Source: Microthrixaceae bacterium
GTDB lineage: Bacteria; Actinomycetota; Acidimicrobiia; Acidimicrobiales; Poriferisodalaceae
Direction: 5' to 3'
Length of the DNA stretch: 64,000 bases
Assembly (NCBI GenBank): GCA_011523825.1
Contig: WTFX01000010.1
Span: forward strand, 1-64,000
A model generated the notes under the pieces. The model saw nothing but the letters and a program-made list of their open reading frames with translations, was not told the DNA's origin and ran no database searches. The translations under genes were made by a program, and so were the position numbers. This document shows positions 1,689 through 57,170 of this stretch, one piece after another; the stretch's first letter is position 1; every line of letters begins with the position of its first letter.

Positions 1689-1692
1689 TCCC

Positions 1693-2601
1693 CTACGCCT
1701 CCCAGTGCGGAATCCAGTCGCCGTCGAGCCGCAGCGACAGGTCCGCGTCGTCTTCGATGCGGCGCGCCACGCTGAGCTCCGGGGCGTCGTCGCCGTAGCG
1801 CTCAGCGGCACGGGCGAACGCGGCACGGGCAGCGGCGGTCATCGGCAAGTCGGCCCCGACTGCTTCCTCCAGCTCGGCCAGCAGACCCAGGTCTTTGAGG
1901 CACAGTCCCAACGAGAACGACGGGTCGTAGTGCCCGGCGAAGATGCTGGGTGCGTCATGGCGGGCCGCGAAGCTGTCTCCCACGCTGGCCTTGATGGCCT
2001 CCCAGAGGTCGCCGAGCTCGACGCCGTTGCGCGCGCCCACCGCCAGACCCTCGGCCAGCGCCGCCGCGCCCACGAACCACAACTGGTTCGTGACCAGCTT
2101 CGTCACGCAGCCGGTGCCCAGTTCGCCGCAAGCGATCACCCGCCCGAGCCGCTCCAGCACCGGGCGCACGCGCTCAATCGCCTCCGGCTCGCCGCCGGCG
2201 AACAGCGTGAGCCTGCCGTTGCGGGCACCATCCACGGCGCCGGTCACCGGCGCGTCGACCACGGACACGCCCGGCGGTGCCTCGGCAACCAGATGGCGGA
2301 TCAGCTCGGGCCGGCTCGTCGTCAGGTCCACCCACGTCGATCCCGGCGACAGCGCCGCAAGCGCACCGGCATCGCACATCACGGCCTCGACCTGCGCAGG
2401 TGCTGGCAAGGATGTCAGCAGTACTTCGACTTCAGTAGCAGCGTCTGCAGCCGAGCGGGCCGCAGACGCTCCAGCGGCAACTGCAGCCTTCAACGCCGCG
2501 GGATTGACATCAAATGCCTGAACCCGATGTCCCGCGCCGGCCAAGCGGGCACACATGGGCCCGCCCATCGTGCCCAGCCCCACGAATCCAACGGTGGTCA
2601 C
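1693..2601 (-). CDS. 3-hydroxyisobutyrate dehydrogenase-family NAD(P)-dependent oxidoreductase
   Basis: The beta-hydroxyacid dehydrogenase has an N-terminal Rossmann fold with GLGTMG (residues 8-13), the substrate-binding signature 'DAPVTGAVDGARNG' (about 116-129) and catalytic Lys168 in 'GTGCVTKLVTNQ'. The length of 302 residues is normal for the family, which oxidises 3-hydroxyisobutyrate, tartronate semialdehyde and similar acids. The start is ambiguous between GTG at 2601 and GTG at 2607; 2601 leaves the Rossmann strand four residues from the N-terminus, as is usual. The gene lies 4 bp upstream of the dioxygenase gene and probably forms a two-gene operon with it. Substrate unknown. Confidence 0.82.
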   Translation of the reverse strand: MTTVGFVGLGTMGGPMCARLAGAGHRVQAFDVNPAALKAAVAAGASAARSAADAATEVEVLLTSLPAPAQVEAVMCDAGALAALSPGSTWVDLTTSRPELIRHLVAEAPPGVSVVDAPVTGAVDGARNGRLTLFAGGEPEAIERVRPVLERLGRVIACGELGTGCVTKLVTNQLWFVGAAALAEGLAVGARNGVELGDLWEAIKASVGDSFAARHDAPSIFAGHYDPSFSLGLCLKDLGLLAELEEAVGADLPMTAAARAAFARAAERYGDDAPELSVARRIEDDADLSLRLDGDWIPHWEA

Positions 2602-4151: not shown

Positions 4152-4172
4152 CAGCCGCTTATTCAGCGGCTG
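4152..4172. terminator. Stem-loop between convergent genes
   Basis: A perfect inverted repeat, CAGCCGCT (4152-4159), TATTC loop, AGCGGCTG (4165-4172), lies between the convergent LLM and dehalogenase genes and covers the dehalogenase stop codon. It could end transcription in both directions. There is no T-run, so Rho-independent action is uncertain. Confidence 0.45.
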
Positions 4173-5041
4173 GTGAGCCAGTCGGCGATGGCTTGGCCGA
4201 TCTCGTCGGGGCTGTCTTCCTGGCAGAAGTGATTGCCCGCGACGGTCACCTCGGTCTGGTTCGGCCAGGTGCGGCAGTACTCCAGCTGGGGGCCGTTCAG
4301 GATCGCGCCCGGGTCAGCGTTGACCAGCAGCTTCGGCACGTCTGAGCCCGACAGCCACTCGCCGTAGTCGGTCACGATCTGGGTGACGTCAGCCGGCTCG
4401 CCCTCGATCGGGATCTGGCGCGGCCACGTCAGTGTGGGGCGCCTGTGCTCGGGCTCGACAAATGGGCGCCGGTACTCGTTCATCTCCTCGTCGCTGAGCT
4501 TGCGGATGATTGAGCCGGGCAGCACCGCTTCCACGAACAGGTTCTTGGTGATGACCATCTCCTCGCCGGCGGGGGAGCGGAAGCCCTGGAATATGCCGGC
4601 TGCTGCCTCAGGCCACTCCGCCCACGTCATCGGCCGCACAATGGCCTCCATGTAGCAGAGACCCGCGACGCGATCACGGTGCCGGTTGGCCCAGTCGAAA
4701 CCGAGCGCCGATCCCCAGTCGTGGATCACGAATGTGACGCGGTCGCCGAGGTCGAGCCCCTCGAGCAAGCCGTCGAGGTACTCGCGGTGCTCGACGAACC
4801 GGTACGAGTCGGGCCCGGTGTCGTCCAGCTTGTCGGAGTCGCCCTGGCCGATCAGGTCGGGCACCACGACCCGAGCATGCGGCCGCACATGGGGCACGAT
4901 GTTGCGCCACAGGTACGACGACGTCGGGTTGCCGTGCAGGAACACGACCGGATCGCCCGAGCCCGAGTCGTGGTACGCCATCTGCTTGCCGTTGACGGTG
5001 GCGTAGGACTTGGTCAGTGGTTCCGCGGACATCGGTGCCAT
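4163..5041 (-). CDS. dhaA: Haloalkane dehalogenase (HLD-II type)
   Basis: This 292-residue alpha/beta hydrolase has the full haloalkane dehalogenase site: oxyanion/halide Asn38 in '[12 protein letters not shown]', nucleophile Asp108 followed by halide-binding Trp109 in '[12 protein letters not shown]', catalytic acid Glu132 ('[11 protein letters not shown]') and base His271 ('AGNHFCQED'). Asp-His plus Glu after beta-strand 6 with Asn as second halide ligand is the DhaA/LinB subgroup pattern. It hydrolyses C-halogen bonds to alcohol, halide and proton in the cytoplasm. The start at 5041 has a GAGGAG ribosome-binding site; a second ATG lies at 5032. It appears monocistronic. The natural substrate is unknown. 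Confidence 0.92.
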
Positions 5042-20201: not shown

Positions 20202-21325
20202 TGGACGCGGACGACCCGCACGCGAACCCAAGCGGCTCGATGGTGCCGAACAGCGATGCGGCTGCTGCGTTCGCTGGCGATGGCGTAGCAGCAGTTGACC
20301 TCTTCTGCGGAATCGGAGGCTTGTCGTACGGTTTGGCGTCGGCTGGGGTCGAAGTGGTGGCAGGCATCGATGTGGACGGCTCCTGCAAGTTTCCTTTCGA
20401 AGCCAACGTGAGCGGCGCACAGTTCATCGAACGAGACGTCCGTGACGTCACGGCTGAGGACCTGTCCAACCTGTGGTCTGAAGGCGCTACGAGGCTCTTG
20501 GCCGGTTGCGCACCGTGCCAGCCGTTCTCTTCGTATCGGAAGGACGTACGCCCGTCGAATGACAACCGTTGGGAACTCCTGAACGAGTTCGGCCGCTTGG
20601 TCGAAGAGACGCAACCCGAATTCGTCACGACTGAGAACGTCCCCCGCATCGAAAGCAAGGCCGTCTTCGCCGAGTTCGTGGCGATGCTCGAAGACCTCGG
20701 TTACTCCGTGGACAGCAGTGTTCGCAGGTGTACCGACTACGGGGTTCCTCAGAACCGCCGTCGCCTCGTGCTGGTCGCCTCCCAGCTAGGCAACGCCGCG
20801 GTCCCGGAGGGAAGCCAATGTGGCCGTCCACCGAAGACGGTTCGGCAAGCCATCGGGGGTCTCCCCGCCATTGAGGCCGGCGGCGCCCACGAAACCGACA
20901 CAGTGCATCGCAGCCGCGGCCTGTCAGCGCTCAACCGGCAGCGAATGGAGGCATCCAAGCCAGGCGGCACGTGGCACGACTGGAATGCGGAGCTGCGAGC
21001 CGCCTGCCATCGTCGAGCCAGCGGAGCCGCATTCAAGAACGTCTACGCGCGCATGCGCTGGGACCAGCCGTCCCCAACGATCACCACCTACTTCCACAAC
21101 TTCGGAGCCGGCCGCTTCGGCCACCCCGAACAGCACCGCACCATCTCCTTAAGGGAGGCCGCCATTCTCCAAGGATTCCCAGGGGATTATCAGTTCGCTC
21201 CTGAAGGAGACACCCCACCTCTGACTACGCTGGGCCGACACATAGGCAATGCCGTGCCGCCACCACTTGGAGAGGCGATAGGCAGAGGTTTTCTTAGCTC
21301 GCTGGCGAAGGTAGGCACGCAATGA
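20201..21325 (+). CDS. C5-cytosine DNA methyltransferase
   Basis: This 374-residue Dcm/HhaI-type enzyme has motif I 'DLFCGIGGLSYGL' (33-45), catalytic Cys106 in 'PCQPFS' (105-110), motif VI 'ENVP' (145-148), motif VIII 'QNRRR' (184-188), and closing motifs 'PTITTYFHNFGAG...LREAAILQGFP' and 'IGNAVPPPLG'. All catalytic motifs are present, so it should be active. The variable region is short. The start overlaps the stop of methyltransferase A by one base, and its own stop overlaps the next start by four bases (ATGA). Its specificity cannot be read. Confidence 0.94.
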   Translation: MDADDPHANPSGSMVPNSDAAAAFAGDGVAAVDLFCGIGGLSYGLASAGVEVVAGIDVDGSCKFPFEANVSGAQFIERDVRDVTAEDLSNLWSEGATRLLAGCAPCQPFSSYRKDVRPSNDNRWELLNEFGRLVEETQPEFVTTENVPRIESKAVFAEFVAMLEDLGYSVDSSVRRCTDYGVPQNRRRLVLVASQLGNAAVPEGSQCGRPPKTVRQAIGGLPAIEAGGAHETDTVHRSRGLSALNRQRMEASKPGGTWHDWNAELRAACHRRASGAAFKNVYARMRWDQPSPTITTYFHNFGAGRFGHPEQHRTISLREAAILQGFPGDYQFAPEGDTPPLTTLGRHIGNAVPPPLGEAIGRGFLSSLAKVGTQ

Positions 21326-23325
21326 CGGAACGGCCGGACTTCACCATGTCCATTGACATGTCGGTCCTTGAGGCGCTTGGTATCAAGCTCTACAGCAACG
21401 CAGCCGCTGTCCTCACTGAACTTGTGGCCAATGCGTACGACGCTGACGCAACACTGGTTCAAATTAGCTGGAACGTGGATGAATCCAGCGTCGTTGTATC
21501 CGACGACGGTTGCGGAATGACTCAGCAAGAACTCAATGATCGTTTTCTGAAGACTGGCTACCAAAAGCGGTCCGAGGAAGGCTCGCACTCTGAGAAGTGG
21601 AACCGGCCGTTTATGGGCCGCAAAGGTATAGGAAAACTAAGCGCGTTTTCCATTGCGGACGAGATCCTCATCTACACTACCAAAGAAGCCGAAAGCACAG
21701 GCTGCCGGATCTCAGTCAATGACCTCAGAAAGGAGATTTCCCTGGGTCGCGCATACCACCCAGAGAAAGTCGAAATCTCCGAAGACTACCCGGGTGTTGG
21801 CACGACAATTGTCCTGCGGCAGCTCACTAGTAAGCGTGTCAGGCTTACCGCGGCCGCACTCCGTAAACGACTCGCTCGTCGCTTCGACATACTTGACCAG
21901 ACGCCGCCTGCCGAGGGTGGCTTTAGAATCGAGATTGATGGGGAGCCGCTTACCTTCGATGATCGACAAGAACTGAAACGACTCGAATTCCTCTGGGAGT
22001 TTGGTGAGCAGCGCTTACCCGATCATGCTTTACCAGCTGGGATAAGTCGGTACGTAATTGACGATTGTAAAGTCGAAGGCCGTGATGATTGGGAAGTACG
22101 GGGCTGGATTGGTACCGCTAGGACTCCCTCAGACCTAGCTGACGACGGCGAGGCCGGTTCGCTCAAGAACATCATGGTGCTGGCCAGGAAGCGCCCAATC
22201 CACGAGGGAATCATCGACAAGCTCGATTTCTCAAGAGTGTTTGGAAACTATGTCACGGGTCAGATCGAGGCCGATTTCTTGGATGTTGACGGAGAGGACG
22301 ACATCGCAACTAGCGACCGCCAACGGCTCATTGAGGATGATCCGCGGGTGCAAGGACTGCACTCGTTCTTGAAGGACGCGTTCCAGACAGCGTCGGATCA
22401 ATGGAATGCCGAGCGACCAAAACGTAAGTCCAAAGATGCGTTTAGAGATTTTCCGGCGCTAGAAACGTGGCGGGATTCCTTGCCCGGATGGCAGCAGGAG
22501 CCTGCAACCAAGATGATCTCCACGATTGCGGCCTTGACGCTGGATCAACGCCATGAGAGAGCAAATCGGGTGTCTCTCTATCGCTCGGGAGTTCTCGCAT
22601 TCGCCCGAATCGGGTTGCGGCAGAAGTCGGATGAGCTTGACCAGCTAGGCACTCTCGACGCCCAACATCTCTTGCAGCTCTTTGGTGCCCAGGAAGAATA
22701 CGAAGCGAGTCTCTGGGCAGATATTCTCCGTGGACGCGTTGAAGCGATCCAGAAGCTGGACAATCTCGCCGATGACAATGCAGTCGAACGAGTAGTTCAA
22801 GAGCATGTCTTCGATCACTTGTGGCTCCTAGATCCTTCTTGGGAGCGAGCCACCGAAGATGCTCACATGGAGGAGAGTCTGCACAAAATCGCGCCAGGGG
22901 TGTTTCCGAAGGACAAGCGGGGAAGAAGAATTGGCGGTCGTATCGACATCAGGTATCGGGAGGCTGCTGGCACACATGTCATTGTGGAGCTAAAGCGATA
23001 TGGACGATCTTCCAAAATCGATGAACTAGTTACACAGGGGTCAAAGTACCTCGACGCGATGACCTCAGTCCTAGAGCAACAGAATCGTGTCGGAGAGCGT
23101 ATAGAGGTTGTATTTGTTCTTGGCAAGAAGCCGACAGTTAGTAGCAGGCACTCATTGCGTGACGATGATGAGCTCATCGCAAGCAGGTTACGAGAGATAA
23201 GTGGACGTTACAGATTGTATCGGCAGCTCGTTAGCAACGCTCTCAAGCAATACAACGACTATCTCAAGGCTTCTCGGCAGGCACATGAGTTAGAGCGCCT
23301 ATTGACTTCGCTCGATTCTGACTAA
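21322..23325 (+). CDS. GHKL (MORC/Hsp90-like) ATPase with C-terminal PD-(D/E)XK-like nuclease
   Basis: The 667-residue protein has a GHKL ATPase at its N-terminus: N-box 'ELVANAYDADA' (Glu33, Asn37), G1 'DDGCGM' (61-66) and G2 'GRKGIGK' (99-105). The region continues with a MORC/MutL-like transducer (about 150-380). Near the C-terminus 'GGRIDIRY...HVIVELKRYG' gives Asp542, Glu556 and Lys558, the arrangement of a PD-(D/E)XK nuclease. GHKL ATPases of this kind occur next to cytosine methyltransferases in restriction operons. I infer an ATP-dependent restriction effector that acts as a gated clamp plus nuclease. The coding sequence is noticeably more AT-rich than its neighbours, a sign of transfer. 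Confidence 0.8.
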   Translation: MTERPDFTMSIDMSVLEALGIKLYSNAAAVLTELVANAYDADATLVQISWNVDESSVVVSDDGCGMTQQELNDRFLKTGYQKRSEEGSHSEKWNRPFMGRKGIGKLSAFSIADEILIYTTKEAESTGCRISVNDLRKEISLGRAYHPEKVEISEDYPGVGTTIVLRQLTSKRVRLTAAALRKRLARRFDILDQTPPAEGGFRIEIDGEPLTFDDRQELKRLEFLWEFGEQRLPDHALPAGISRYVIDDCKVEGRDDWEVRGWIGTARTPSDLADDGEAGSLKNIMVLARKRPIHEGIIDKLDFSRVFGNYVTGQIEADFLDVDGEDDIATSDRQRLIEDDPRVQGLHSFLKDAFQTASDQWNAERPKRKSKDAFRDFPALETWRDSLPGWQQEPATKMISTIAALTLDQRHERANRVSLYRSGVLAFARIGLRQKSDELDQLGTLDAQHLLQLFGAQEEYEASLWADILRGRVEAIQKLDNLADDNAVERVVQEHVFDHLWLLDPSWERATEDAHMEESLHKIAPGVFPKDKRGRRIGGRIDIRYREAAGTHVIVELKRYGRSSKIDELVTQGSKYLDAMTSVLEQQNRVGERIEVVFVLGKKPTVSSRHSLRDDDELIASRLREISGRYRLYRQLVSNALKQYNDYLKASRQAHELERLLTSLDSD

Positions 23326-23553
23326 GCCGCCCAGAGACGGCGACATGTCTAATGGAGCTAGTATCCGCCACCAGCTGTGCAGCGGCGTGGTAACCAAGCG
23401 ATCACCTTGGCGTGATAGCGGACGGACAGCTCGCTGAGTGAGCGGCTGCTGTTCCGTACCGTTTTGATGCGATTGTCGGGATTTGAGACGAGTCAGAGGC
23501 TGGCAACTCGGCTAACGCCACCTTTCGCCTCGAAGCGTCGGATTGATCAGGGG
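23326..23553. other. Intergenic stretch, no gene seen
   Basis: These 228 bp lie between the GHKL gene and the CaiB fragment. Nothing codes convincingly on either strand. The sequence changes from the moderate GC of the ATPase gene to a mix of decayed DNA. No tRNA, IS end or clear terminator was recognised. Confidence 0.6.
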
Positions 23554-24165
23554 TCAGTCAATGACACCGACTATGGCGAACTCGACGAGGCGGTTGACGT
23601 CGTAGTCGAGACTCTCCCACAAGCCTTGGCCGTTGTGTTCGCCCAGGCTGAAGCCTGAACGGGTGATGGCATGGGGCGTCGCTCTGAGCTGCCGGCGAGG
23701 CGGCTCCACGATCATGCGGTCATGCACGGGGTGGTCAACCTCCACCCAGTGAGCGCGCTGGCTGAACTGCGGATCGACGAAGCAAGCCAGTCCGCTCCGG
23801 TTGACCTGAGCGGGGATGCCTCCGGCCTGTAGCGCCGCCTCGGCTTCAGCGAGGGTGCGGTCGGCGGCCTAGGCATCGACGAGAGCACCGATCTCGCTGC
23901 TATGGGCTCCGCGTCCTGTTACGTCGAGTCCAGCCGACTCTGCGGGCTCAGGTTGGCCGCCCTCGTCCAGCACCTTGCACAGCGCTGCCCAGCAGTGCTT
24001 GATCTTGCAGGTCGTCGCAATCCATGGGCCCGGCGTTCGAGTGGATTGTCAGGGCCCGCGTCGGGGGGATCGCACGAGTACATCGCGTGGGGACACAGGT
24101 GTGCATCAACGTTGCCCACCCGGGTGGCGATGGTGCGCTCCGGCACCCCGGTTGGGAGGCAGTGA
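23554..24165 (-). pseudogene. Degenerate C-terminal fragment of a CaiB/BaiF fusion gene
   Basis: Read leftward, this matches the last ~190 residues of the intact CaiB fusion at 27041-29500. 'ATRVGNVDAHLCPHAMYSC' corresponds to 'ATRMGNADAFMCPHAMYPC', and 'VEVDHPVHDRMIVEPPRRQLRATPHAITRSG' to 'VEHPLYDRMVVEAPRLQLSATPHAVTRSG'. It carries an in-frame TAG (complement of 23869-23871), a one-base deletion around 24035, and no upstream domain. The natural stop is still at 23554. It is in the same orientation as the intact gene 3 kb away, with the methyltransferase B cassette between them. Clearly non-functional. Confidence 0.88.
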
Positions 24166-24172
24166 CTCGCCA

Positions 24173-24347
24173 CTAGCCGTTCGTCAGATGTCACTTTCTC
24201 GCCTCGCAGTCCCTTGTCGTGCACATCGTGCGCGCTTCGAGCTTCTTGCTCGACGCCAGTCGCAGCCTGTGCGCGCAGTCCTGAGGCACTGCGGTTGGTC
24301 GTCCAAGCAGAAGATGCGCACGTGTCGAACAGTTGTTGTCACACCCC
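24173..24347. repeat. Leader repeat, copy B, with first codons of a lost CinA-like gene
   Basis: This is the second copy of the repeat at 18236-18413. On the minus strand it starts a decayed CinA-like frame at GTG 24194 that reads 'TSDERLVA', matching 'TPDERLAA' of the intact gene. After nine codons homology ends and the CaiB fragment begins, so a deletion or recombination joined the two. The 22-bp identical block is at 24326-24347, about 57 bp before methyltransferase B. Confidence 0.8.
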
Positions 24348-24403
24348 CGAATGACTGTGGCCCAGCGGACGGAATCGTCGCTCCGCCGACCTGGAGGTGT
24401 CGT

Positions 24404-26077
24404 ATGCGAACATGCCAGCAGATGGTTTTGACCATGCCGGAAACGGCACTTGATGAGGCGCCGGCCGGCGGCATCGTTGACGAGCAGCAACTGTGCGCGG
24501 TCGCGTGGGCTCTCGCCAGCGACGGCTGTCTCAGGGATGTCAACCGCGCCGAGGCGGGCCTCATCGCAAAGGCGGATGAGTCGCTCTCATCGGTCGCAGT
24601 CGAGCGCGTAATGGCAGCAATTCGGTTGGGTGAGGACCCTCTAGGCACTGCATTTGCTTCGCTTCGATCAGCGGCGCAGCGGCGCAAACTGGGGGCGACG
24701 TATACACCAGCGTCACTGATCGGTCCGATGTCGGAGTGGCTCGCGAGTTACAAGCGCGCATCTCGTGTCGTGGACCCAGGTGCCGGGTCAGCGAGGTTCC
24801 TGGTCGCGGCCGGTCGGCTCCTACCAGAGGCTCGGCTCGTTGCAGTCGAGATTGACCCGCTCGCTTCGCTAGTTGCGCGCGCGAATCTGACTGTCTCGGG
24901 CTTCGATGAGCGGTCCGAGGTGCACGCGGCCGATTTCCGTTCGTTGAAGCTGGCATCTCACCCTGGACCGACAGCATTCATCGGCAACCCTCCCTACGTG
25001 CGGCACCATGACATCGCGCCCAAGTGGAAGGCGTGGTTGCGAGAACGTTCCGAGGAATTGGGTTTGAAGGCGTCGGCGCTCGCGGGCTTGCACGTTCACT
25101 TCTTGCTTGCAACCGCTCATCTCGCGCGGGCGGGTGATTACGGAGTCTTCGTCACCTCGTCTGAGTGGCTTGACGTGGGCTACGGACGGCTCGCCCGCGA
25201 ACTGGTCGCCGGGCCGCTAGGCGGACTTTCGGTTCATGTTCTTGATGCCCGAAGCCGGGCCTTCGCCGACGCCGCCACCACGGCGGCAGTCACGGCGTTC
25301 GAAGTGGGGGAGTCGCGGTGCAGCGTTCGTGTCCGCAAGATCAAGCGAACCGAGGACTTGCGAGGTTTGCAAGGCGGCAAGCGATTCAACCGTGAGAAGT
25401 TGCGCACGACGCGTCGCTGGTCGTCGCTCCTGGAACCCAAAGTCAGCGTGCCGTCGGACTTCGTCCCGCTCGGTGAGTTCTGTCGTGTGCACCGGGGAGC
25501 GGTCACTGGCGCAAATGCCACGTGGGTGACCAAGCAACGCGACCCGAGATTGCCGGCAGCAGTGTTGTTCCCCGCAGTGACTAAGGCGTCTGAGCTGATC
25601 AACCTGGGTTCGGCATTCTTGAGAGATGACCACCATCTACGTGCAGTGATTGACCTGCCGGAAGATCTGGACGTCCTGGATGCGGAAGACCGAGAGCTCA
25701 TTGAGCGGTTCTTGCGCTCAGCCCGACGGGAGGGCGCGGCGAACAGCTACATCGCTCGTCACAGAAAGCCTTGGTGGTCTGTCAAGTTGCGTGACCCTGC
25801 CCCAATTCTGGCCACCTATATGGCTCGACGTCCTCCGACGTTCGTGCGCAATCTCGCATCAGCCAGGAACATCAACGCAGTGCACGGCATCTACCCGTTG
25901 CAGCAGTTGTCCGATTTCGCGCTTTGCCGCTTGACGAAGGCGCTTCGCAACGGCGCTTCCTTGACTGGTGGTCGTACATACGCTGGCGGTCTGACGAAGT
26001 TTGAGCCTTCGGAGATGGCCGAGGTCATGGTCCCGCCGCCGAGCTGGCTGGAATCGGGCGAGCCATGGCCCTCGTAG
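24404..26077 (+). CDS. N6-adenine DNA methyltransferase B (XamI/SalI-like)
   Basis: The 557-residue paralogue of methyltransferase A has 'GATYTP' (97-102), motif I 'DPGAGSARF' (124-132), 'VEIDPLA' and NPPY (195-198). ATG at 24404 was selected because GGAGG at 24393-24397 lies six bases upstream; later in-frame ATGs (24422, 24434) are possible. The gene ends 13 bp inside the restriction endonuclease gene, a coupled M-R order. It should protect host DNA against that endonuclease. Protein ends '...SWLESGEPWPS', where A continues with unrelated residues. Confidence 0.9.
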   Translation: MRTCQQMVLTMPETALDEAPAGGIVDEQQLCAVAWALASDGCLRDVNRAEAGLIAKADESLSSVAVERVMAAIRLGEDPLGTAFASLRSAAQRRKLGATYTPASLIGPMSEWLASYKRASRVVDPGAGSARFLVAAGRLLPEARLVAVEIDPLASLVARANLTVSGFDERSEVHAADFRSLKLASHPGPTAFIGNPPYVRHHDIAPKWKAWLRERSEELGLKASALAGLHVHFLLATAHLARAGDYGVFVTSSEWLDVGYGRLARELVAGPLGGLSVHVLDARSRAFADAATTAAVTAFEVGESRCSVRVRKIKRTEDLRGLQGGKRFNREKLRTTRRWSSLLEPKVSVPSDFVPLGEFCRVHRGAVTGANATWVTKQRDPRLPAAVLFPAVTKASELINLGSAFLRDDHHLRAVIDLPEDLDVLDAEDRELIERFLRSARREGAANSYIARHRKPWWSVKLRDPAPILATYMARRPPTFVRNLASARNINAVHGIYPLQQLSDFALCRLTKALRNGASLTGGRTYAGGLTKFEPSEMAEVMVPPPSWLESGEPWPS

Positions 26078-26979
26078 ATCCTCCGCGCTGGTCGGAAGAG
26101 GTGCTCGGACGAGAACGTCTCAAGGCCATCGAGATCTTCCGCGAGGAGCGGCTCACCGAGCCCTTGGAGAGGTACCTCGAGGCGTTCGATGACTATGCAG
26201 CCAGTGTTGACCGTCTTATGCGCGAGAGCGACGACCTCCGATCGCTCCACGATGTCGCGCAGGAGGTACTGACCGACGCAGACCTGTTGGAGGCCGTTCG
26301 CTACCTCGCAGGACCACCGGTTTCTGCCGACGATCTCATGGAATTGGCAGAGACCCAGTTGACAGTGAGCCGCTTGCGGGACGACGAAGCCGCCGCCCAA
26401 CGCGTGATCGAGACCATCTTGGACATGCTTGATTGCCGCCGATTTGCCTGGGTGACAGAGAATCGAGAGCCCACGGATGAAGAACGATCTTCGGCTGCTC
26501 TGGCGTCGGCTGCTCTCATGGCGAGTCAACGGGTGCGAACAAACCGTGCCAACAGTGCCAAGACCGATCAGGAGGAGGCCGTTCGCAACCACCTCGCCGA
26601 TTCGGGTCTCGGAGAAGTAGAGACACGCGAAATCTGGACGCCGGCAGATGCTCCAGGGCGCGGTGAGTTCTGTGCCGAGTGTTCCGTCGCCGGTCGTAAG
26701 GCCGACGTGGTCGTCGGATTGCATGACGGTCGGGTGATGCCGATCGAATGCAAGGTTTCGAACTCGTCAACGAATTCCGTGAAGCGGCTGAACAACGACG
26801 CTGCGGCCAAGGCTGCCGAGTGGCTCCGGGCGTTTGGCCATCAGGGAATTGTGCCGACGGCCGTATTGTCCGGCGTCTTCAAAACCCACAACCTCGTCCA
26901 GGCTCAAGACAGCGGCCTGACGATCTTCTGGGCTCACGACCTATCGCCACTGACCGCCTTCGTATCCTTCACCGAGTAG
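26065..26979 (+). CDS. Type II restriction endonuclease, XamI-like
   Basis: This 304-residue protein begins 'PPRWSEEVLGRERLKAIEIFREERL', followed by 'EPLERYLEAFDDY', which matches my memory of the XamI restriction endonuclease family (GTCGAC). The nuclease core is 'GRKADVVVGLHDGRVMPIECKVSNSSTNS': Asp214, Glu228 and Lys230 form a PD-(D/E)XK site. It overlaps the 3' end of methyltransferase B by 13 bp in another frame. A complete type II pair is therefore present. The specificity is by family analogy only. No decay is visible. Confidence 0.82.
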   Translation: MALVDPPRWSEEVLGRERLKAIEIFREERLTEPLERYLEAFDDYAASVDRLMRESDDLRSLHDVAQEVLTDADLLEAVRYLAGPPVSADDLMELAETQLTVSRLRDDEAAAQRVIETILDMLDCRRFAWVTENREPTDEERSSAALASAALMASQRVRTNRANSAKTDQEEAVRNHLADSGLGEVETREIWTPADAPGRGEFCAECSVAGRKADVVVGLHDGRVMPIECKVSNSSTNSVKRLNNDAAAKAAEWLRAFGHQGIVPTAVLSGVFKTHNLVQAQDSGLTIFWAHDLSPLTAFVSFTE

Positions 26980-47532: not shown

Positions 47533-49272
47533 CTATTGAGTTCGCTCGACCTCGACGGTGATGATGTCGATGCCCGAGTACTTCCGGTGGCGCACCCTCG
47601 ACGCGAAGTGACTCAGCAGGCGGAGCGACATCGTGTGCCCTTCGGGTGCGGGGGCTCGTTCGCTCACAAACGTGAGCCGGTCTTCGAGATTCTGGGCATC
47701 TGCTGAGGTGCGCAACTGCAGTTCGATGCTGGCCGCTGAGGGTCGGGCGATGACGACCAAGCGCGACGGAGACTGATCCTCGCCGGTCTCGCTCTCCTCC
47801 ATGAGGCTCAGCAGTGATTCCTCGCCGACGAGCCTGAGCCGGTTCGCTGAGGCCTCATCCCAGCCGGAATCGGCCGCGATCTCCGACAGGAACTGGTCGA
47901 CCTGCGGCAGCGTCTCGGCATCCAATGCTGTCTCGAGACGGCGGCGCTTCCGACCGCTCGACTCGAGGTAGGCCGTCAGCAAGATCGCGATCAGCGTGCC
48001 GACCACCATGCCGTTGCTGAGCAGCGTCCCCCAGGCGCCGCCGATGATGGTGCCGATCGAGTCGGAGCCCTGCAGTCCCACGCCGACCGCAACGGCGACG
48101 CCGATCACGACGGCCTTCTGGGGCCGCAGGCCGTCCTGCAGCACGGAGCGGAGGCCTTCCACGAACAGCAGCCCCATGATGATGAGCAGGTAGCCCGAAG
48201 CCACTGCGCTGGGAACCGTGAGCAGCACGGCGGTCAGCTTCGGTGTCAGCACCAGAGCGATCAGGATGGCGCCGATGCAGTACCCGACCCTGCGCGAGGC
48301 CACGCCGGTGAACTGTGCGAAAGAGATGGACGTCGCATCCATGGTTCCGACGGACAGCGTTCCCGCGAGTCCGCCGACGAGCGAGCCGATGCCGACGGTG
48401 TTGACCGTGCCCTGCACGAGGCGGTAGTCGGCCGCGCCCGGATCCCGTCGTGACACCCGCTGGATCACTACGGCGGTGGTCATCGCCTTGATGGTGACGG
48501 CCAGCGAGACGACCACAAACAGCGGCAGCAGTGCCCAGAAGTCGGCTCCTGGGGTCAGTTCGAGCCCGGGGAACTCGGGCTGCGGCACCGCAAGCCAAGC
48601 AGCGCTGCCGATACCGGCTGGGTCATACAGCCCGAACAGGACGGCAGCGATGGTGGCAGCGACAATGGCAATGATCGGCGACCACAGCCGGAGCAGCCCC
48701 TTGGCGCGCAGCGCCAGCACTGCTGCCACCAACACCGCGATGAGCGCGACCACTGGCGCCGCGATGTCGGGGGCGTCGGTGGTCGTCGTTCCGACACGCT
48801 CGACGACCACTCCCATTACGCCGATCGCGATCAGCATGACGACGACACCTGAGACCGCCGGCGTGATGATCCGGCTCAGGCGATGCAGCCACTTGGCCAG
48901 CGCGAGCTGGAACACGGCGGTGACGACCACCAAGGACGCCAGCGTCTGCGGCCCGGCACTGTTCACTGCCAGGATTGCAACAGCCAGATAGCTCGGCGAG
49001 ATGGCCATCAGCACGTTGTGGCCCCCGCCCACTGGTCCGAGACGGGCGGCTGCAACCGCGGTTGCGATGCCGCAGACCACGATGGCTGCCATCACCGACC
49101 ATGTCGCTTGCCGGGCACTGAGACTTGTCGACTGCACGAACAGCGACATGGTCAGCACGGTCGGCGCCAAGGCGATCACGACGCCCTGGATGCCCATTCC
49201 CAGCGACAGCGCGAACGAGCACTGCTCGTCCGGTTCGTAGGTGATGTCCTCGTCCGGCGCTACTGCGGCCAC
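47533..49272 (-). CDS. NCS2-like permease with C-terminal GHKL/anti-sigma-like domain
   Basis: The 579-residue protein has about 12-14 hydrophobic segments from residue 20 to 440. 'GPVGGGHNVLMAISPSYLAVAI' and 'GGLAGTLSVGTMDATSISFAQFTGVASRRVG' recall the xanthine/uracil (NCS2) transporters. Unusually, residues ~445-579 are soluble: 'QVDQFLSEIAADSGWDEASANRLRLVGEESLLSLMEES' and 'RLVVIARPSAASIELQLRTSADAQNLEDRLTFVSERA', which resemble the helix-strand layout of HATPase_c/SpoIIAB-type domains without a clear G1/G2. I infer a regulatory domain. GTG at 49272. A C13 run lies 26 bp upstream. Confidence 0.72.
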   Translation of the reverse strand: MAAVAPDEDITYEPDEQCSFALSLGMGIQGVVIALAPTVLTMSLFVQSTSLSARQATWSVMAAIVVCGIATAVAAARLGPVGGGHNVLMAISPSYLAVAILAVNSAGPQTLASLVVVTAVFQLALAKWLHRLSRIITPAVSGVVVMLIAIGVMGVVVERVGTTTTDAPDIAAPVVALIAVLVAAVLALRAKGLLRLWSPIIAIVAATIAAVLFGLYDPAGIGSAAWLAVPQPEFPGLELTPGADFWALLPLFVVVSLAVTIKAMTTAVVIQRVSRRDPGAADYRLVQGTVNTVGIGSLVGGLAGTLSVGTMDATSISFAQFTGVASRRVGYCIGAILIALVLTPKLTAVLLTVPSAVASGYLLIIMGLLFVEGLRSVLQDGLRPQKAVVIGVAVAVGVGLQGSDSIGTIIGGAWGTLLSNGMVVGTLIAILLTAYLESSGRKRRRLETALDAETLPQVDQFLSEIAADSGWDEASANRLRLVGEESLLSLMEESETGEDQSPSRLVVIARPSAASIELQLRTSADAQNLEDRLTFVSERAPAPEGHTMSLRLLSHFASRVRHRKYSGIDIITVEVERTQ

Positions 49273-49388: not shown

Positions 49389-50462
49389 CTACACCGAGTA
49401 GGCGAAGTCGCGCAGTGCGGCAGCCGTCGCCGCGTACACCTCAGGCATGGCGCCGCGGAAGATCACGTCGCCCGCGTGGCAGGTGCCGTTGACCGTTCGG
49501 GCCTGAGCGCTGTTTCCGGCCGCGAGCAGCTTGTGGTAGTAGGCGAGGCCCTCGTCGCGCAGCGGGTCCAGCTCGTTCACCGAGACGACATGCGGCGGCA
49601 GGCCCGCCAGATCGTCGGCGGTGGCGTGCAGCGGCCAGGCCAGCGGGTTGGTGCGGTCGGGTCCGCCCAGGTCGTACGCCTTGGCGATGCCGCCCATGTT
49701 CTCGCAGTCCAGGAAGTACTGGTTGTTCTCGGTCAATGACGGAAGACTCGCCGGCGGCTCCGCGTACGCCCCCGAGATGTAGGGACACTGCGCAAACACG
49801 CCGTCGATGATGTCGAGATACCCCTCTCGCTTGGCCTTCAGCGTGGTGGCCAGCGTCAGATTTCCTCCGCCCGACTCGCCCGAGACGGTGATCGTGGAAA
49901 CGCCGAGGGCGTCCTTGTTGGCGGCGACCCACTGCAGGCCTGAGGCGCAGTCGTTCAGACCGGCCGGGAATGGGTGATTGCCGAGCTTGCCGCCGCCGTT
50001 GCGGAACTCGACGCCCACCGCGACGAGCCCCCGCGACGCCAGTTCGTTCCGCCACGCGACGTACGACATGCCCGCCGCGGACAGCAGCACCATGCCGCCG
50101 CCGTGGATGTGGTACACGCACGGCAGCGGGCCGTCGGCCTCCGCCGGGCGGTGGATGAACAGCGTGATGTCGTTGTCGTCGACCCCGCTGATGACTTCGG
50201 TGCTCGCCACCACGCCGTCGGGGGGCGTCAGATCGGCGAAGAGCGCGTCGAACAGCATCTCGAAGCCCGGCTCGGCCTCATCGACCCAGGCGTACAGCTC
50301 CTCCATTGACGAGTCCGCGGTGGCTGTCGCAGGCTCGCCGTGCCCGTCGAGACCCATTGCTGCCAGCACTGCCACCATGCGCGGATCAGCACGCGGATCG
50401 GTGCCGAGCGTCATATCCGGATCGCCGAGCCGTCCCGGCCGGTGTACCTCTGCTGCAGCCAT
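49389..50462 (-). CDS. HSL-type alpha/beta hydrolase (esterase)
   Basis: This 357-residue hormone-sensitive-lipase-like hydrolase has oxyanion motif 'HIHGGGMVL', nucleophile motif 'GESGGGN', acid Asp in 'ELDPLRDEG' and base His in 'GTCHAGD'. ATG at 50462 is favoured by GGAAGGA at good spacing; an ATG at 50477 is possible. It cleaves short-chain esters or similar compounds. Divergent from the PhyH-like gene. Confidence 0.9.
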   Translation of the reverse strand: MAAAEVHRPGRLGDPDMTLGTDPRADPRMVAVLAAMGLDGHGEPATATADSSMEELYAWVDEAEPGFEMLFDALFADLTPPDGVVASTEVISGVDDNDITLFIHRPAEADGPLPCVYHIHGGGMVLLSAAGMSYVAWRNELASRGLVAVGVEFRNGGGKLGNHPFPAGLNDCASGLQWVAANKDALGVSTITVSGESGGGNLTLATTLKAKREGYLDIIDGVFAQCPYISGAYAEPPASLPSLTENNQYFLDCENMGGIAKAYDLGGPDRTNPLAWPLHATADDLAGLPPHVVSVNELDPLRDEGLAYYHKLLAAGNSAQARTVNGTCHAGDVIFRGAMPEVYAATAAALRDFAYSV

Positions 50463-50594
50463 GATGATTCCTTCCATCCGCAGGACGCTCCCATGCCGTC
50501 CCGTCGCGCCGCCGACAGTAGCCCCGACGCGCGCACCCGAACGCTGTGGTCGGCGTCGGTAGAGGTATGTAGTCGTTCTTATTACTATGGCAAA
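50463..50594. promoter_or_regulatory. Divergent promoter region
   Basis: These 132 bp separate the esterase gene (leftward) from the PhyH-like gene (rightward). The last 30 bp before the ATG at 50595 are AT-rich (TATGTAGTCG, TTCTTATTACTATGG), a likely -10 region. No convincing ribosome-binding site precedes 50595, suggesting a short or leaderless transcript. Confidence 0.4.
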
Positions 50595-51557
50595 ATGACC
50601 GATCATCCTTTCGACAACGAATTCGTCATCACCAGCGCGCAGAAGGAGCAGTTCTCGCGCGACGGCTTCGTCAAGCTCGAAGGATTCCTGAACCCCGGCG
50701 TGGTCGACATGCTGCTCGATCAGGTCGACGCCGAATCGAGCCGCGGCGCTGGCGACGCCCCCCCGCCCCAGCCGGGCCGCCGGTTCGCCAACATGCAGCA
50801 CTTCTTGGCGACCGACAAGAAGGAAGTCTTCGGATTGATCCAGCGTCCCTACTTCCAGCGGGGCTTGACTGAGCTGACAGGATGCGACCTGTTTCTCACC
50901 TACGACCTGTCTTTCGAAATCGAGCAGAGCGTCGACCGGGGGCTGCCGTGGCACGCCGGCGTGTCGACGTTCGGGCTCCACTTCGCCGAGGACTTCGGGT
51001 GCACGCTCTGGGCCCCGCTGCACCCCATAGATCCGGACGGGCAGCGCGGCGGCATCGCCTGCGTTCCGCTCCATGTGCTGTCAGCCGAATTCGTCCACAC
51101 GACGGACTTGGCTCTCGTCGAGGTGATCAGGGCCAGGGAGCGGGCCGGGAGATCGACGAGCCCGCAGGATTACCGTGATCTCAGGAACGAGATACTGAAT
51201 TCCCCGGTGATGGACGAGCTCTGTGATGTCCACATGGTCGAATACGACTTTGCTCCCGGCGATGCGCTCCTGTTCACCAAGAACGTCGTGCACCGCAGCA
51301 TCGTGCTCGGCCCCGGCGAGCTGCCGCGTCGCGCTGCGTACGCAATGCGCTTCATCGACGCCTCGTCGCGCTACGACCTGAACCGGGCGCAGACCCTCCA
51401 TTTCCCCAGCGTGCAGTACGGGGAGGGGCTGTTCCCCTACCGGCAGATCACGAGCGACTACGTCGAGATCGGCAAAGCCGGGGCGAAGGACGGCGACCTC
51501 GTCGCGCAATGCGCCTACTTCAGCGACCGCGACCTCAGGATGGTCGTGGGTGCATGA
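50595..51557 (+). CDS. PhyH-family (phytanoyl-CoA dioxygenase-like) protein with HxG in place of HxD
   Basis: The 320-residue protein has a PhyH-like layout: 'FSRDGFVKLEGFLNPGVVDMLL', 'GCTLWAPLHPIDPDGQRGGIACVPLH' and distal 'NVVHRSIVLGPGELPRRAAYAMRFI'. The second His (233) and Arg pair fit iron and 2-oxoglutarate binding. The expected first His-x-Asp is His120-Ala121-Gly122 in 'PWHAGVSTFG'. A missing carboxylate is the mark of Fe/2OG halogenases (HxG/HxA) but may also mean another ligand or no iron. ATG at 50595. Confidence 0.78.
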   Translation: MTDHPFDNEFVITSAQKEQFSRDGFVKLEGFLNPGVVDMLLDQVDAESSRGAGDAPPPQPGRRFANMQHFLATDKKEVFGLIQRPYFQRGLTELTGCDLFLTYDLSFEIEQSVDRGLPWHAGVSTFGLHFAEDFGCTLWAPLHPIDPDGQRGGIACVPLHVLSAEFVHTTDLALVEVIRARERAGRSTSPQDYRDLRNEILNSPVMDELCDVHMVEYDFAPGDALLFTKNVVHRSIVLGPGELPRRAAYAMRFIDASSRYDLNRAQTLHFPSVQYGEGLFPYRQITSDYVEIGKAGAKDGDLVAQCAYFSDRDLRMVVGA

Positions 51558-51599: not shown

Positions 51600-53261
51600 C
51601 TACTCGGGCTCGGCCAGCGGGGGCGGGCGTTCGCGATCTGGATCGTCGACGAGCAGGCGCCGGGTGATGTCCTGGGCTTCGTCGAGTGTTCCGACCAGCT
51701 GCTCGGACGGGATGCGACGCAGTGCATTCAGCGACGTGAGCGTGGCAGCGGGCGCGCCGTCAAGCGCCAGCACGATGCAGTGCACTTCGTTTTCCGTCGC
51801 CGTGTCGATGAGCTGTTCGATGACCAGCGCGGCGCTGTCGTCGATGTGATCGGTCTCGGAGAAGTCGAGAATCACCACTTGGTGACCCACGATGTCGTCG
51901 CCGATGGTGCGGATGAGCTTGCTTGAGGAAGCGACGGTGAAGCTGCCGCGCAGCTTCACAATGCCGGTGCGAGCGGAATACGGGCTGATGCCGTAGGACT
52001 CTGCGCTGTGCTCGTGCAGGAAGATCTGATCGAGCAGGGGCACCGAGATGACGCTGTCGAGCTGGAGGCGCTCGAACTGGCGGGCGCCGATCATGCCGGC
52101 CACGATCAATCCCACGGCCACCGCCGTCACCAGGTCCACGAAGATCGTGATGCCGAGGGTCGTCAACATGATCAGCAGGTGCTCGCGCTGCACCCGGCGC
52201 AGTCGCGCCAAGAACCGCCAGTCGATGAGCTGCCAGCCGGTCACCGTAAGTATTCCTGCCAACGCGGCGTGCGGCACATAGGCGAGCAGCGGCGCCAATC
52301 CCAGCACGAGCCCCAGGAGCGTGAGCGAGCGGACGATGGGTGAGATCGGGGTACGGGCTCCCATCCGCCACGCCAGAATCGACGACAGGAACGTCGGGCT
52401 GCCCGGCAAGCCGCCGATCAGGCCGGCTGCGACATTGCCGATGCCCGTGCCGAGCAGGCCCTTGTCCGGGTCGAGCTGGGTGCGAGTCTGCGCATCCACT
52501 GCCAAGGCGCCCAGCAGACCTCGCACCGTGCTGAGCAGGGCGATGGTCAGCGCCGGCACCACGGCGCCTGCCAGGAAGCCCAGCGAGAGCTCGGGACGCT
52601 GCAGGTCGGGCAGCGAGCGCGGGATGCCTTCGAGTGTCGGCACGTCGCTCAGCCAAATGATGTTCAGGAGGGTGCCGACCAGCAGTGCCGCGACCATGGC
52701 GGGCAGGTACCCGCGAAGTCGCTTGGGCCACAGCAGCGCGACAGCCAGCGCAACCAAGCCGATGATCAATGCGCCCGCGTTCAGCGCTTCCAGCGCGTCG
52801 GGCCATTTCTGGATTGCGTTCAGGGGTTTGGTGATCTTGACCGGTTCCCCCAAGAACGAGTTGACCAGGGAGAGCACCATCATCACGCCGATTCCCGATG
52901 TGAATCCGGCGATCACCGAGTACGGCGTATAGGTGACATAGCTGCCGATGCGCAGCACGCTCAAGACGAGCTGGATGACGCCGGCCAGTATCACCACCGT
53001 GAACGCTTCGGCGGGGGTCTCGGCGTGCGTCGCCACGACGGCGGCCATGGCCACCGCCAAGACGGCGCTCACCGATCCCATCTGGGGCCGCGACCGTTCG
53101 AAGATGCCCACGAAGAAGCCCACTGCGAGAGCGCCGTAGATGCCGCTCGCGGCTCCGAGCCCCGACACCACGCCGAACGTCGCAGCGGGCGTAATGGAAA
53201 CTGCCGCCGCGGTGATGCCGCCCGACACGTCTCCACGCAGTGTGTGAAGGTCGTAGCTCAT
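51600..53261 (-). CDS. SulP-family anion transporter with STAS domain
   Basis: The 553-residue SLC26/SulP protein has about 11 hydrophobic segments from residue 10 to 410 with 'DVSGGITAAAVSITPAATFGVVSG' and 'PGSPTFLSSILAWRMGARTPIS'. A C-terminal STAS domain (about 430-530) follows: 'GIVKLRGSFTVASSSKLIRTI', 'VVILDFSETDHIDDSAALVIEQLID'. It carries sulfate, bicarbonate or other anions. The start ATG at 53261 is 7 bp from the carboxylase gene's stop, so it is likely in the same transcript. Confidence 0.9.
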   Translation of the reverse strand: MSYDLHTLRGDVSGGITAAAVSITPAATFGVVSGLGAASGIYGALAVGFFVGIFERSRPQMGSVSAVLAVAMAAVVATHAETPAEAFTVVILAGVIQLVLSVLRIGSYVTYTPYSVIAGFTSGIGVMMVLSLVNSFLGEPVKITKPLNAIQKWPDALEALNAGALIIGLVALAVALLWPKRLRGYLPAMVAALLVGTLLNIIWLSDVPTLEGIPRSLPDLQRPELSLGFLAGAVVPALTIALLSTVRGLLGALAVDAQTRTQLDPDKGLLGTGIGNVAAGLIGGLPGSPTFLSSILAWRMGARTPISPIVRSLTLLGLVLGLAPLLAYVPHAALAGILTVTGWQLIDWRFLARLRRVQREHLLIMLTTLGITIFVDLVTAVAVGLIVAGMIGARQFERLQLDSVISVPLLDQIFLHEHSAESYGISPYSARTGIVKLRGSFTVASSSKLIRTIGDDIVGHQVVILDFSETDHIDDSAALVIEQLIDTATENEVHCIVLALDGAPAATLTSLNALRRIPSEQLVGTLDEAQDITRRLLVDDPDRERPPPLAEPE

Positions 53262-53268
53262 CGGATTG

Positions 53269-55459
<2,191 letters not shown>

Positions 55460-55467
<8 letters not shown>

Positions 55468-55559
55468 TGCCCGTCGCCCCTACATCCGGAAGACCGGTGT
55501 TGTAGCGGCGTCTTCCCTTGTTGCTTGCTCATTGCCCGTCGCCCCTACATCCGGAAGAC
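55460..55559. repeat. 35-bp direct repeat from a 65-bp tandem duplication
   Basis: Positions 55460-55494 are repeated exactly at 55525-55559, an offset of 65 bp. The repeated unit contains the last codons and stop of the beta subunit gene together with the spacer and start codon of the alpha subunit gene. The copy nearer the beta gene keeps the true stop (55545-55547); the copy nearer the alpha gene keeps the true start (55465-55467). Confidence 0.95.
55464..55532 (-). CDS. Possible 22-codon leader ORF from duplicated start codon
   Basis: The extra copy of the alpha subunit's ATG (55530-55532) opens a frame of 22 residues that begins MSKQQGK. It ends in a TGA that overlaps the genuine alpha-subunit ATG by three bases (ATGA). 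If translated it would couple ribosome delivery from beta to alpha. It is most likely a by-product of the duplication rather than a functional peptide. Confidence 0.3.
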
Positions 55560-57170
55560 GCCGAACCCGTCGGCGCCTTTCACCACGTTGTTGTGGCAGG
55601 CAGACAGGGACATTGCGATCACGTCCCGGGTGTCGCGCGGATCGATGACGCCATCATCGGTGACGCGCCCGCTGGCATACGGGGCCAGCGACTTCAGCTC
55701 GTGGTAGTGCTCCACCTGCTCGGTGATCTTGCGGTCGGCCTCCTCGTCGAACTCGATGCCGCGGCGCATTGCCTGGCCCCGCCGTACGATCGACATGACG
55801 CCCGCGATCTGCTTCGGGCCCATGATCGCGATCTTGGCGGTCGGCCACAGGTAGGTGAAGCGGGTGTTGAACGCCCGCCCCGACATGCCGTAGTTCCCGG
55901 CGCCGTAGCTGTTGCCCAGGATGACCGTGATGTGGGGCACCATCGAGTTGGACACGGCGTTGATCATCTTGGAGCCGTTCTTGACGATCCCGCCCTGCTC
56001 GAAGTCCTTGCCGACCATGTAGCCGGTGATGTTCTGCAGGAACACCAGCGGGATGTCCTGCTGGTTGCAGAGCTGGATGAACTGGGTGGCCTTCTCGGAG
56101 CTGTCGCTGAACAGCGGGCCGTTATTGCCCAGGATCCCTACCGGGAAACCGTGCACCGAGGCCCAACCGCAGATGAGCGTGGTGCCGTAGCGGGCCTTGA
56201 ACTCCTCGAAGCGAGAGCCGTCCGTGATGCGGGCGATGACCTCGCGGCAGTCGATCATGGCCTGCAGGTCTCGCGGCATCAGCCCGAGCAGTTCCTCGGG
56301 ATCGTGGACTGGGGGATCGGCCGGCATGGTCGGTCCCGGGCCCAGCTTGCGCCAGTTCAGGTGCGCCACGACCTCGCGGCAGATGCGCAGCGCATCGGCT
56401 TCGTCCTCGGCCAGGTAGTCGGCGAGACCCGAGATCTCGGCGTGCATCTGCGCCCCGCCAAGCGTCTCGTCATCGGAGTCCTCGCCGGTGGCCATCTTCA
56501 CCAGCGGCGGTCCGCCCAGGAAGACCTTCGACTGGTTGCGGATGAAGATGTTGTAGTCGCTCATGCCGGGCTGGTAGGCGCCCCCGGCCGTCGAGCTGCC
56601 GAACACCACTGAGATCGAGGGGATCTTCATCTTCGACAGCTCGGTCACGTCGTAGAAGAGCCTGCCGGACTCGGCGAAGTGGCTCTCCTGCTCGAGCATC
56701 TGCCGCTCGGGATCGTCGTCGCCGCGCAGGTCGCCGCCCGCCGACTCCACGAACTGGATGTAGGGCATGCGATTGTCGCGGCAGATCTCGATGGCCCGCA
56801 TGATCTTGCGGCCCGCGAACACCGTGATGGCCCCGCCGAGCACGGTGGGGTCATTGCCCTCGATCATGCACTCGACGCCGTTCACGACGCCGATCCCCAT
56901 CACCAGCCCGCCGCCGACGGCGTAGTTCGAGCAGTAGCCGGCTAGCGAGCTGATCTCGAAGAACGGCGAGTCGCGGTCGAGCACCATGGCAATGCGTTCG
57001 CGCACGGGCATCTTGTCGCGGCTGCGCATGCGTGCCATAGCCCGCGGTCCGCCGCCGGCCGCAGCCTGCTGCTGCAGCTCGTCGAGCTCTGCGAGCTGCT
57101 CGCGCATGTCGTCGCAGTTCTGGGTGAACCACTCGGCGGAGGTGTCGATGTGGGATCGCAGTACTGGCAT
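55545..57170 (-). CDS. Acyl-CoA carboxylase beta subunit (carboxyltransferase, MCC-like)
   Basis: This 541-residue carboxyltransferase has 'ERIAMVLDRDSPFFEISSLAGY', 'ECMIEGNDPTVLGGAITVFAGRKIMRAIEIC', 'VFGSSTAGGAYQPGMSDYNIF', 'FLGGPPLVKMATGE' and 'LGGAQMHAEISGLADYLAEDE'. The second crotonase-like half ends 'PHITVILGNSYGAGNYGMSGRAF'. These are closest to methylcrotonyl-/geranyl-CoA carboxylase beta subunits. It moves the carboxyl group from biotin to the acyl-CoA. First gene of a leftward beta-alpha-SulP operon. Confidence 0.93.
   Translation of the reverse strand: MPVLRSHIDTSAEWFTQNCDDMREQLAELDELQQQAAAGGGPRAMARMRSRDKMPVRERIAMVLDRDSPFFEISSLAGYCSNYAVGGGLVMGIGVVNGVECMIEGNDPTVLGGAITVFAGRKIMRAIEICRDNRMPYIQFVESAGGDLRGDDDPERQMLEQESHFAESGRLFYDVTELSKMKIPSISVVFGSSTAGGAYQPGMSDYNIFIRNQSKVFLGGPPLVKMATGEDSDDETLGGAQMHAEISGLADYLAEDEADALRICREVVAHLNWRKLGPGPTMPADPPVHDPEELLGLMPRDLQAMIDCREVIARITDGSRFEEFKARYGTTLICGWASVHGFPVGILGNNGPLFSDSSEKATQFIQLCNQQDIPLVFLQNITGYMVGKDFEQGGIVKNGSKMINAVSNSMVPHITVILGNSYGAGNYGMSGRAFNTRFTYLWPTAKIAIMGPKQIAGVMSIVRRGQAMRRGIEFDEEADRKITEQVEHYHELKSLAPYASGRVTDDGVIDPRDTRDVIAMSLSACHNNVVKGADGFGVFRM

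Follow-up and report, generated by a model that had tools for sequence, protein, structure and literature searches.

What does an Fe(II)/2-oxoglutarate (2OG) enzyme do when the carboxylate ligand of its iron has been replaced, and on which molecule does it act? The question is raised by a gene at positions 50595–51557 (forward strand) of the window, as we call the whole 64,000-nucleotide stretch analyzed here, which forms the start of contig WTFX01000010.1 (assembly GCA_011523825.1, Microthrixaceae bacterium). Judging from its sequence, the 320-amino-acid product is probably (at roughly 80%) a functional Fe(II)/2OG-dependent radical halogenase belonging to the BtnX branch, and would place chlorine or bromine on an unactivated carbon. 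It most likely acts on a small, soluble metabolite. Among single candidates biotin, or a derivative of it, tentatively leads, but some other compound is on balance the more probable.

The halogenase-type gene was recognized by a full-length match to BtnX, a match to CurA, and the ratio of nonsynonymous to synonymous substitution (dN/dS) measured against an ortholog. Its first metal motif reads H120-A121-G122 (50952–50960, codons CAC GCC GGC), the predicted first iron histidine followed by Gly in place of the Asp or Glu of HxD/E, as a preliminary description of this DNA had reported; at the aligned column, all ten other matches to the Pfam family PhyH (PF05721) in the same genome read HxD. That description had also found a distal histidine and an Arg pair still in place, and both H233 (51291–51293), the predicted distal iron ligand, and R246 to R252 (51330–51350), the pair expected at the 2OG/halide end, are invariant in an eight-row alignment (A1), the two arginines standing at His233+13 and His233+19. 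We take the roles of the pair to be those of R248 and R254 in SyrB2, and the choice of which Arg binds 2OG is assumed on the same footing. Conservation of Gly122 across the subfamily, put forward earlier as a check, is complete: every one of the 15 aligned rows in which the site can be read has HxG, a count that takes in the window protein and the ortholog and leaves out the truncated row L034. In the 12 other full-length rows 31 positions are invariant, including H120, G122, H233, R246, and R252, and the window protein keeps these five.

The ortholog, from the sister genome Acidimicrobiales SB0675_bin_4 (G004), is 89% identical and also reads HAG. The gene is under purifying selection, with dN/dS over 317 codons of 0.062/0.307 = 0.20 (NG86) or 0.053/0.624 = 0.085 (YN00); because the ortholog shares HAG and dN/dS is low, the motif is not a local error. 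The match to PF05721 is marginal (22.8 bits against a cut-off of 22), and neither NCBIfam (E 0.001) nor PHROGs (E 0.01) gave a family for the 320-amino-acid protein.

The best match in a search of PDB sequences is 9PV1/9Q04 (E 1.1e-91, residues 1–317), which its depositors named "Biotin halogenase BtnX", and the second is CurA (3NNF and others; E 6.7e-20, residues 91–265). With a profile built from the eight relatives of A1, BtnX scores 3.5e-163 and CurA 2.1e-40, followed by a leucine hydroxylase, the best-scoring hydroxylase, at 3.6e-4. The earlier proposal that loss of the carboxylate opens a site for halide is thus supported by the conservation of Gly122 and by the identity of the nearest solved relatives, both of them halogenases. 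Passages in two publications use HXG/A as a halogenase signature (PMC12871659, PMC11186838), and restoring Asp or Glu in SyrB2 is described as abolishing halogenation with no hydroxylation gained (PMC4019311).

If the predicted binding of iron, halide, and 2OG is correct, His120 and His233 would hold the iron, 2OG would be anchored by one Arg of the R246/R252 pair, and chloride or bromide would occupy the site freed by Gly122. By analogy with the SyrB2 paradigm, O2 and 2OG would then generate a halo-ferryl species that takes hydrogen from an aliphatic C-H, and the halide would rebound onto the carbon. Glu132 or Asp133, named in the preliminary description as residues that might stand in at the iron, look unlikely as ligands: an acidic residue occupies position 133 in each of the 15 rows, among them BtnX and CurA, an argument from alignment only. 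In the published description, a halogenase holds its iron with a pair of His and the halide (PMC4019311).

The preliminary description had also appealed to an organohalogen context. A haloalkane dehalogenase is indeed encoded in the window (4163–5041, reverse strand), well over the NCBIfam cut-off (441.7 bits against 241), and the second protein invoked, a HalD-like dioxygenase, was located at 753–1826 (reverse strand; the start of its open reading frame [ORF] may lie too far upstream). The latter, however, falls below its Pfam cut-off (22.8 against 26) and has no PDB sequence match at E 1; by eye it reads H-F-D and so is probably an oxygenase. The two genes add little to the case for a halogenase, because they lie approximately 45–49 kb away and the HalD-like protein apparently keeps HxD.

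Outside the catalytic residues the protein has diverged from its branch. We listed the 63 positions that are invariant in ten other members (core rows, six of them close enterobacterial/Acinetobacter relatives, with CurA and two distant rows left out), and the window protein alters 11 of them: S65A, D70F, K111Q, Q124S, S125T, M154I, Y156C, G164A, Y168H, L210C, and D217Y. Nine of these changes are common to the window protein and the G004 ortholog. As controls, P0003, a paralog encoded in G004, and BtnX alter 5 of 57 and 6 of 58 positions, respectively, mostly by milder changes. At position 66 the window protein has Asn, against Arg or Lys in all 13 others, and in a wider test with 12 rows it alters four of 31 invariant positions (125, 154, 164, 168). 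Segments 118–128 and 150–168 hold six of the 11 changed but 17 of the 63 invariant positions (P = 0.033), a clustering that is only suggestive because the segments were picked after the list was seen. We read the combination of intact catalytic residues and changed family positions as suggesting that the chemistry is unchanged but the substrate is another one or a modified one.

The surroundings of the gene bear on the same question. To its left lies a divergently transcribed esterase gene of the alpha/beta-hydrolase type (49389–50462, reverse strand; Pfam Abhydrolase_3) and to its right a gene for a SulP-family transporter (51600–53261, reverse strand; Pfam Sulfate_transp). These two genes are separated by 1,137 bp in the window, and both there and in G004 the halogenase gene stands between them; in three further sister genomes, G006, G009, and G002, they are direct neighbors, with at most 172, 157, and 157 bp separating the matches, and no halogenase gene is present. 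DNA similarity to G006 stops at 50447 and restarts at 51637, with the exception of 21 bases at 50514–50534. Given the intact flanks in G006, G009, and G002, the halogenase is a case of one-gene presence or absence within core synteny. A functional link to the genes for biotin carboxylase/biotin carboxyl carrier protein (BCCP) and carboxyltransferase (53269–57170) was considered and rejected; G006, G009, and G002 keep the esterase, SulP, and biotin-carboxylase genes in order without the halogenase. An NCS2 nucleobase permease (47533–49272, reverse strand), which extends approximately 140 residues beyond its Pfam permease match, is encoded two genes away. A member of the same family adjoins P0003, but the family is expanded in the genus (one to five matches in each of 11 genus genomes, four in the window's own), and the link is weak. 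Elsewhere in the window is a restriction-modification-like run (21322–26979, forward strand) encoding a HATPase-domain protein, an Eco57I/N6 methyltransferase, and a XamI-type endonuclease.

Of the alternatives to a retuned halogenase, the one that survives best, although it is doubtful, is that the enzyme is a strict equivalent of BtnX that halogenates biotin itself, the halo-biotin acting as an antivitamin or denying biotin to neighbors; this is a narrower version of the main reading. The two proteins are 48% identical over their full length, and biotin appears to matter to this organism: the genus is apparently without biotin synthesis, but two matches to the biotin/lipoate-ligase family occur in the window genome, as does the nearby biotin carboxylase/BCCP gene. 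BioB fell below cut-off in all nine genus genomes searched (above it in two of four others), the best BioA match reached 309 bits against a cut-off of 405, and inspection by eye of the surrounding ORF starts revealed no recognizable bio gene. Ligase-family proteins without recognized biotin synthesis imply that biotin is probably needed, and imported by another route than BioY, which was absent from all nine genus genomes and from all 13 genomes searched, the window's own included (control matches in nine of 14). Nor were linked biotin transport genes (BioY, of the energy-coupling factor [ECF] type) recognized beside 50595–51557, unlike the situation of BtnX; such linkage characterizes the roseobacter copies and may not be a requirement. 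The nearby biotin carboxylase gene belongs to the core synteny and occurs without the halogenase, and the protein departs from the family at R/K66 (to N), D70F, Q124S, Y156C, Y168H, and D217Y, whereas none of these six positions departs from the family residue in P0003.

It is unlikely that the enzyme acts, like CurA, on a polyketide or peptide intermediate bound to a carrier protein. CurA is the second solved relative, and P0003 sits in an island with a type I polyketide synthase (PKS), but a Pfam scan covering part of the window ORFs found no PKS or nonribosomal peptide synthetase domain, the gene sits by itself as an insertion between the esterase and SulP genes, and BtnX, a nearer relative than CurA, carries the name of a free vitamin. 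Besides the type I PKS, the P0003 island (L036 10–10993) encodes a hydrolase and an NCS2 permease. PheA and methyltransferase genes lie near it; they also occur in G006, G003, and the window genome, where the island's genes were not found in the 19.9 kb stretches read.

Several points count against a halogenase of any kind. The function of BtnX rests on the name given by the PDB depositors, and no BtnX publication was found among the literature matches listed. HxG by itself does not prove halogenation, 11 of 63 core-invariant positions are altered, and an AlphaFold model obtained from a four-row alignment has a pLDDT of 34.9, too low for use. An iron site with two His might instead catalyze hydroxylation, desaturation, or ring closure without incorporating halide. 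The Fe/2OG enzymes BelL and HrmJ are described as cyclizing without halogen, although these are IDO-like (PMC10764440), and altered residues of the window protein do fall in the segment immediately after HxG. We nevertheless consider a nonhalogenating oxidation improbable, as both of the nearest solved relatives are halogenases and the catalytic residues match those of the BtnX branch.

A decaying or nonfunctional copy is very unlikely: the gene is present in just two of the 11 genus genomes, and the stem branch of the window type is long (0.48 against 0.33 for P0003), but the frame is open, dN/dS lies far below 1, the catalytic residues are kept, and a 23-base block upstream is identical in G004. 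This block (50567–50589) has equal spacing in both genomes, and the bases around it differ. It lies in a probable promoter (50567–50594, forward strand) with TACTAT at 50583–50588, which ends 6 nt before the ATG; a scan of the upstream region for a sigma-70 consensus gave no site. The conserved block backs the ATG start, and the transcript is predicted to be leaderless.

The near-full-length relatives within the genus number one in the window genome and two in G004. Matches at E 1e-10 or better were obtained in one of 296 genomes of a class sample and in one of 396 genomes of a phylum sample, in both cases the window genome itself. A single-protein search of genome contigs returned no close relative, and a search with a second alignment (A2) returned seven loci, of which L035–L038 belong to the halogenase-type family, L039 reads H-Q-D, and L040 and L041 matched over 46 and 40 residues. 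Searches of viral contigs gave no relative. Phylogenetically, the window protein pairs with the ortholog (100/100), and the pair joins P0003 at 84/85, below the mark for full support; several rows are long-branched.

More can be said of BtnX itself. Its chain is identical over 310 residues to WP_012187119.1 of Dinoroseobacter shibae, encoded on plasmid pDSHI01 at 89186–90118. In D. shibae (L028 10001–13781 = NC_009955.1 89186–92966) and in Pseudosulfitobacter, the BtnX gene or its counterpart stands directly upstream of bioY, an ATPase gene, and ecfT, and another bioY lies farther on. ORFs on a Nioella contig stand at offsets equal to those of Pseudosulfitobacter, the stretch shown for Roseovarius THAF9 ends after the ATPase gene, and the Alexandriicola and Pseudosulfitobacter proteins are identical. 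By position, length, and neighbors, we identify the BtnX gene as Dshi_3684, which a mutant study describes as encoding a 310-amino-acid "2OG-Fe(II) oxygenase". A transposon that had inserted at 89405 of the 191 kb plasmid hit this gene, one of five insertions ("killer genes") that ended the killing of Prorocentrum minimum (PMC8831719). Two other nonkilling insertions are placed in the downstream bioY and ATPase genes, the target, Prorocentrum minimum, is given as a biotin-auxotrophic dinoflagellate, and the authors explain the killing by depletion of biotin by the bacterium (PMC8831719). A halo-biotin antivitamin would fit the same mutants, as would a polar effect of the Dshi_3684 insertion on bioY. 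These data concern BtnX, and their bearing on the window gene is not direct.

Few aliphatic halogenases work on free small molecules, and such enzymes are sought as C-H catalysts. At approximately 48%–55% identity, BtnX, P0003, and the window enzyme make up a natural series in which the catalytic residues are shared while the surroundings apparently differ, and the window enzyme has probably changed its substrate. The analysis also links two results that we did not find joined among the literature matches listed, a structure named as a biotin halogenase and a nonkilling mutant of the same gene (PMC8831719). Joining them makes it possible to test whether the killing comes from depletion of biotin or from a halogenated antivitamin, or whether the mutant phenotype reflects a polar effect of the insertion on bioY. 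We offer a speculative scheme, itself rather unlikely as a whole, in which the BtnX branch makes halogenated antivitamins against hosts or competitors, and the genus gained the gene, which split into the P0003 and window types, the window type being retuned to another vitamin-like or host metabolite. D. shibae would in that case use halo-biotin to kill its dinoflagellate, and depletion of biotin would be at most a part of the cause.

Distant relatives were encountered on plasmids. In Klebsiella, Pantoea, and Acinetobacter, a relative of 33%–34% identity that reads HIG adjoins a LysE-type exporter gene (L029 6856–9595 and L071 4858–7598; also L030, L031, L072, and L074). On two Klebsiella plasmids it is preceded by a gene for a heme-oxygenase-like diiron protein, which in K. 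aerogenes is nearer to HrmI (E 7e-37) than to BesC (1.9e-4); the HIG relative, LysE, and diiron genes possibly form an unstudied pathway of amino-acid halogenation. Plasmids of Pantoea agglomerans (L033 5797–13604) and Klebsiella pneumoniae (L073 1541–9442) carry a relative of 24%–27% identity, likewise HIG, in a cluster with genes for an octopine-type dehydrogenase and for DapH-like, SDR, ATP-grasp, MFS, and LysE proteins. A human fecal contig filed as bacteriophage (an unverified record; L034 977–1726) holds a 30% relative broken by a frame change.

Among known systems, canonical PhyH proteins (PF05721) resemble the window protein through a profile match just above cut-off and differ from it in possessing the carboxylate ligand. 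The halogenase domain of CurA (PDB 3NNF, 3NNJ, 3NNL, 3NNM) shares the HxG site, the distal His, and the Arg spacing over residues 91–265, but its motif is HVG rather than HAG, its score is far lower (6.7e-20), and it is described as part of a polyketide assembly line (PMC4019311), whereas no PKS gene was found beside the window gene. P0003 is sister to the window pair in the tree, shows 54%–55% identity, and has HxG; it differs in reading HVG, in keeping BtnX-like residues at 124, 125, 154, 156, 164, and 168, and in sitting in a PKS island, whereas the window gene is alone. BtnX is homologous over the full length (residues 1–317) at 48% identity, with HxG, the distal His, and both Arg in common. 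Its gene, however, reads HVG and lies on a plasmid upstream of bioY, the ATPase gene, and ecfT, whereas the window gene reads HAG, stands alone, is chromosomal by synteny, and encodes a protein altered at 11 of the 63 core-invariant positions of the branch.
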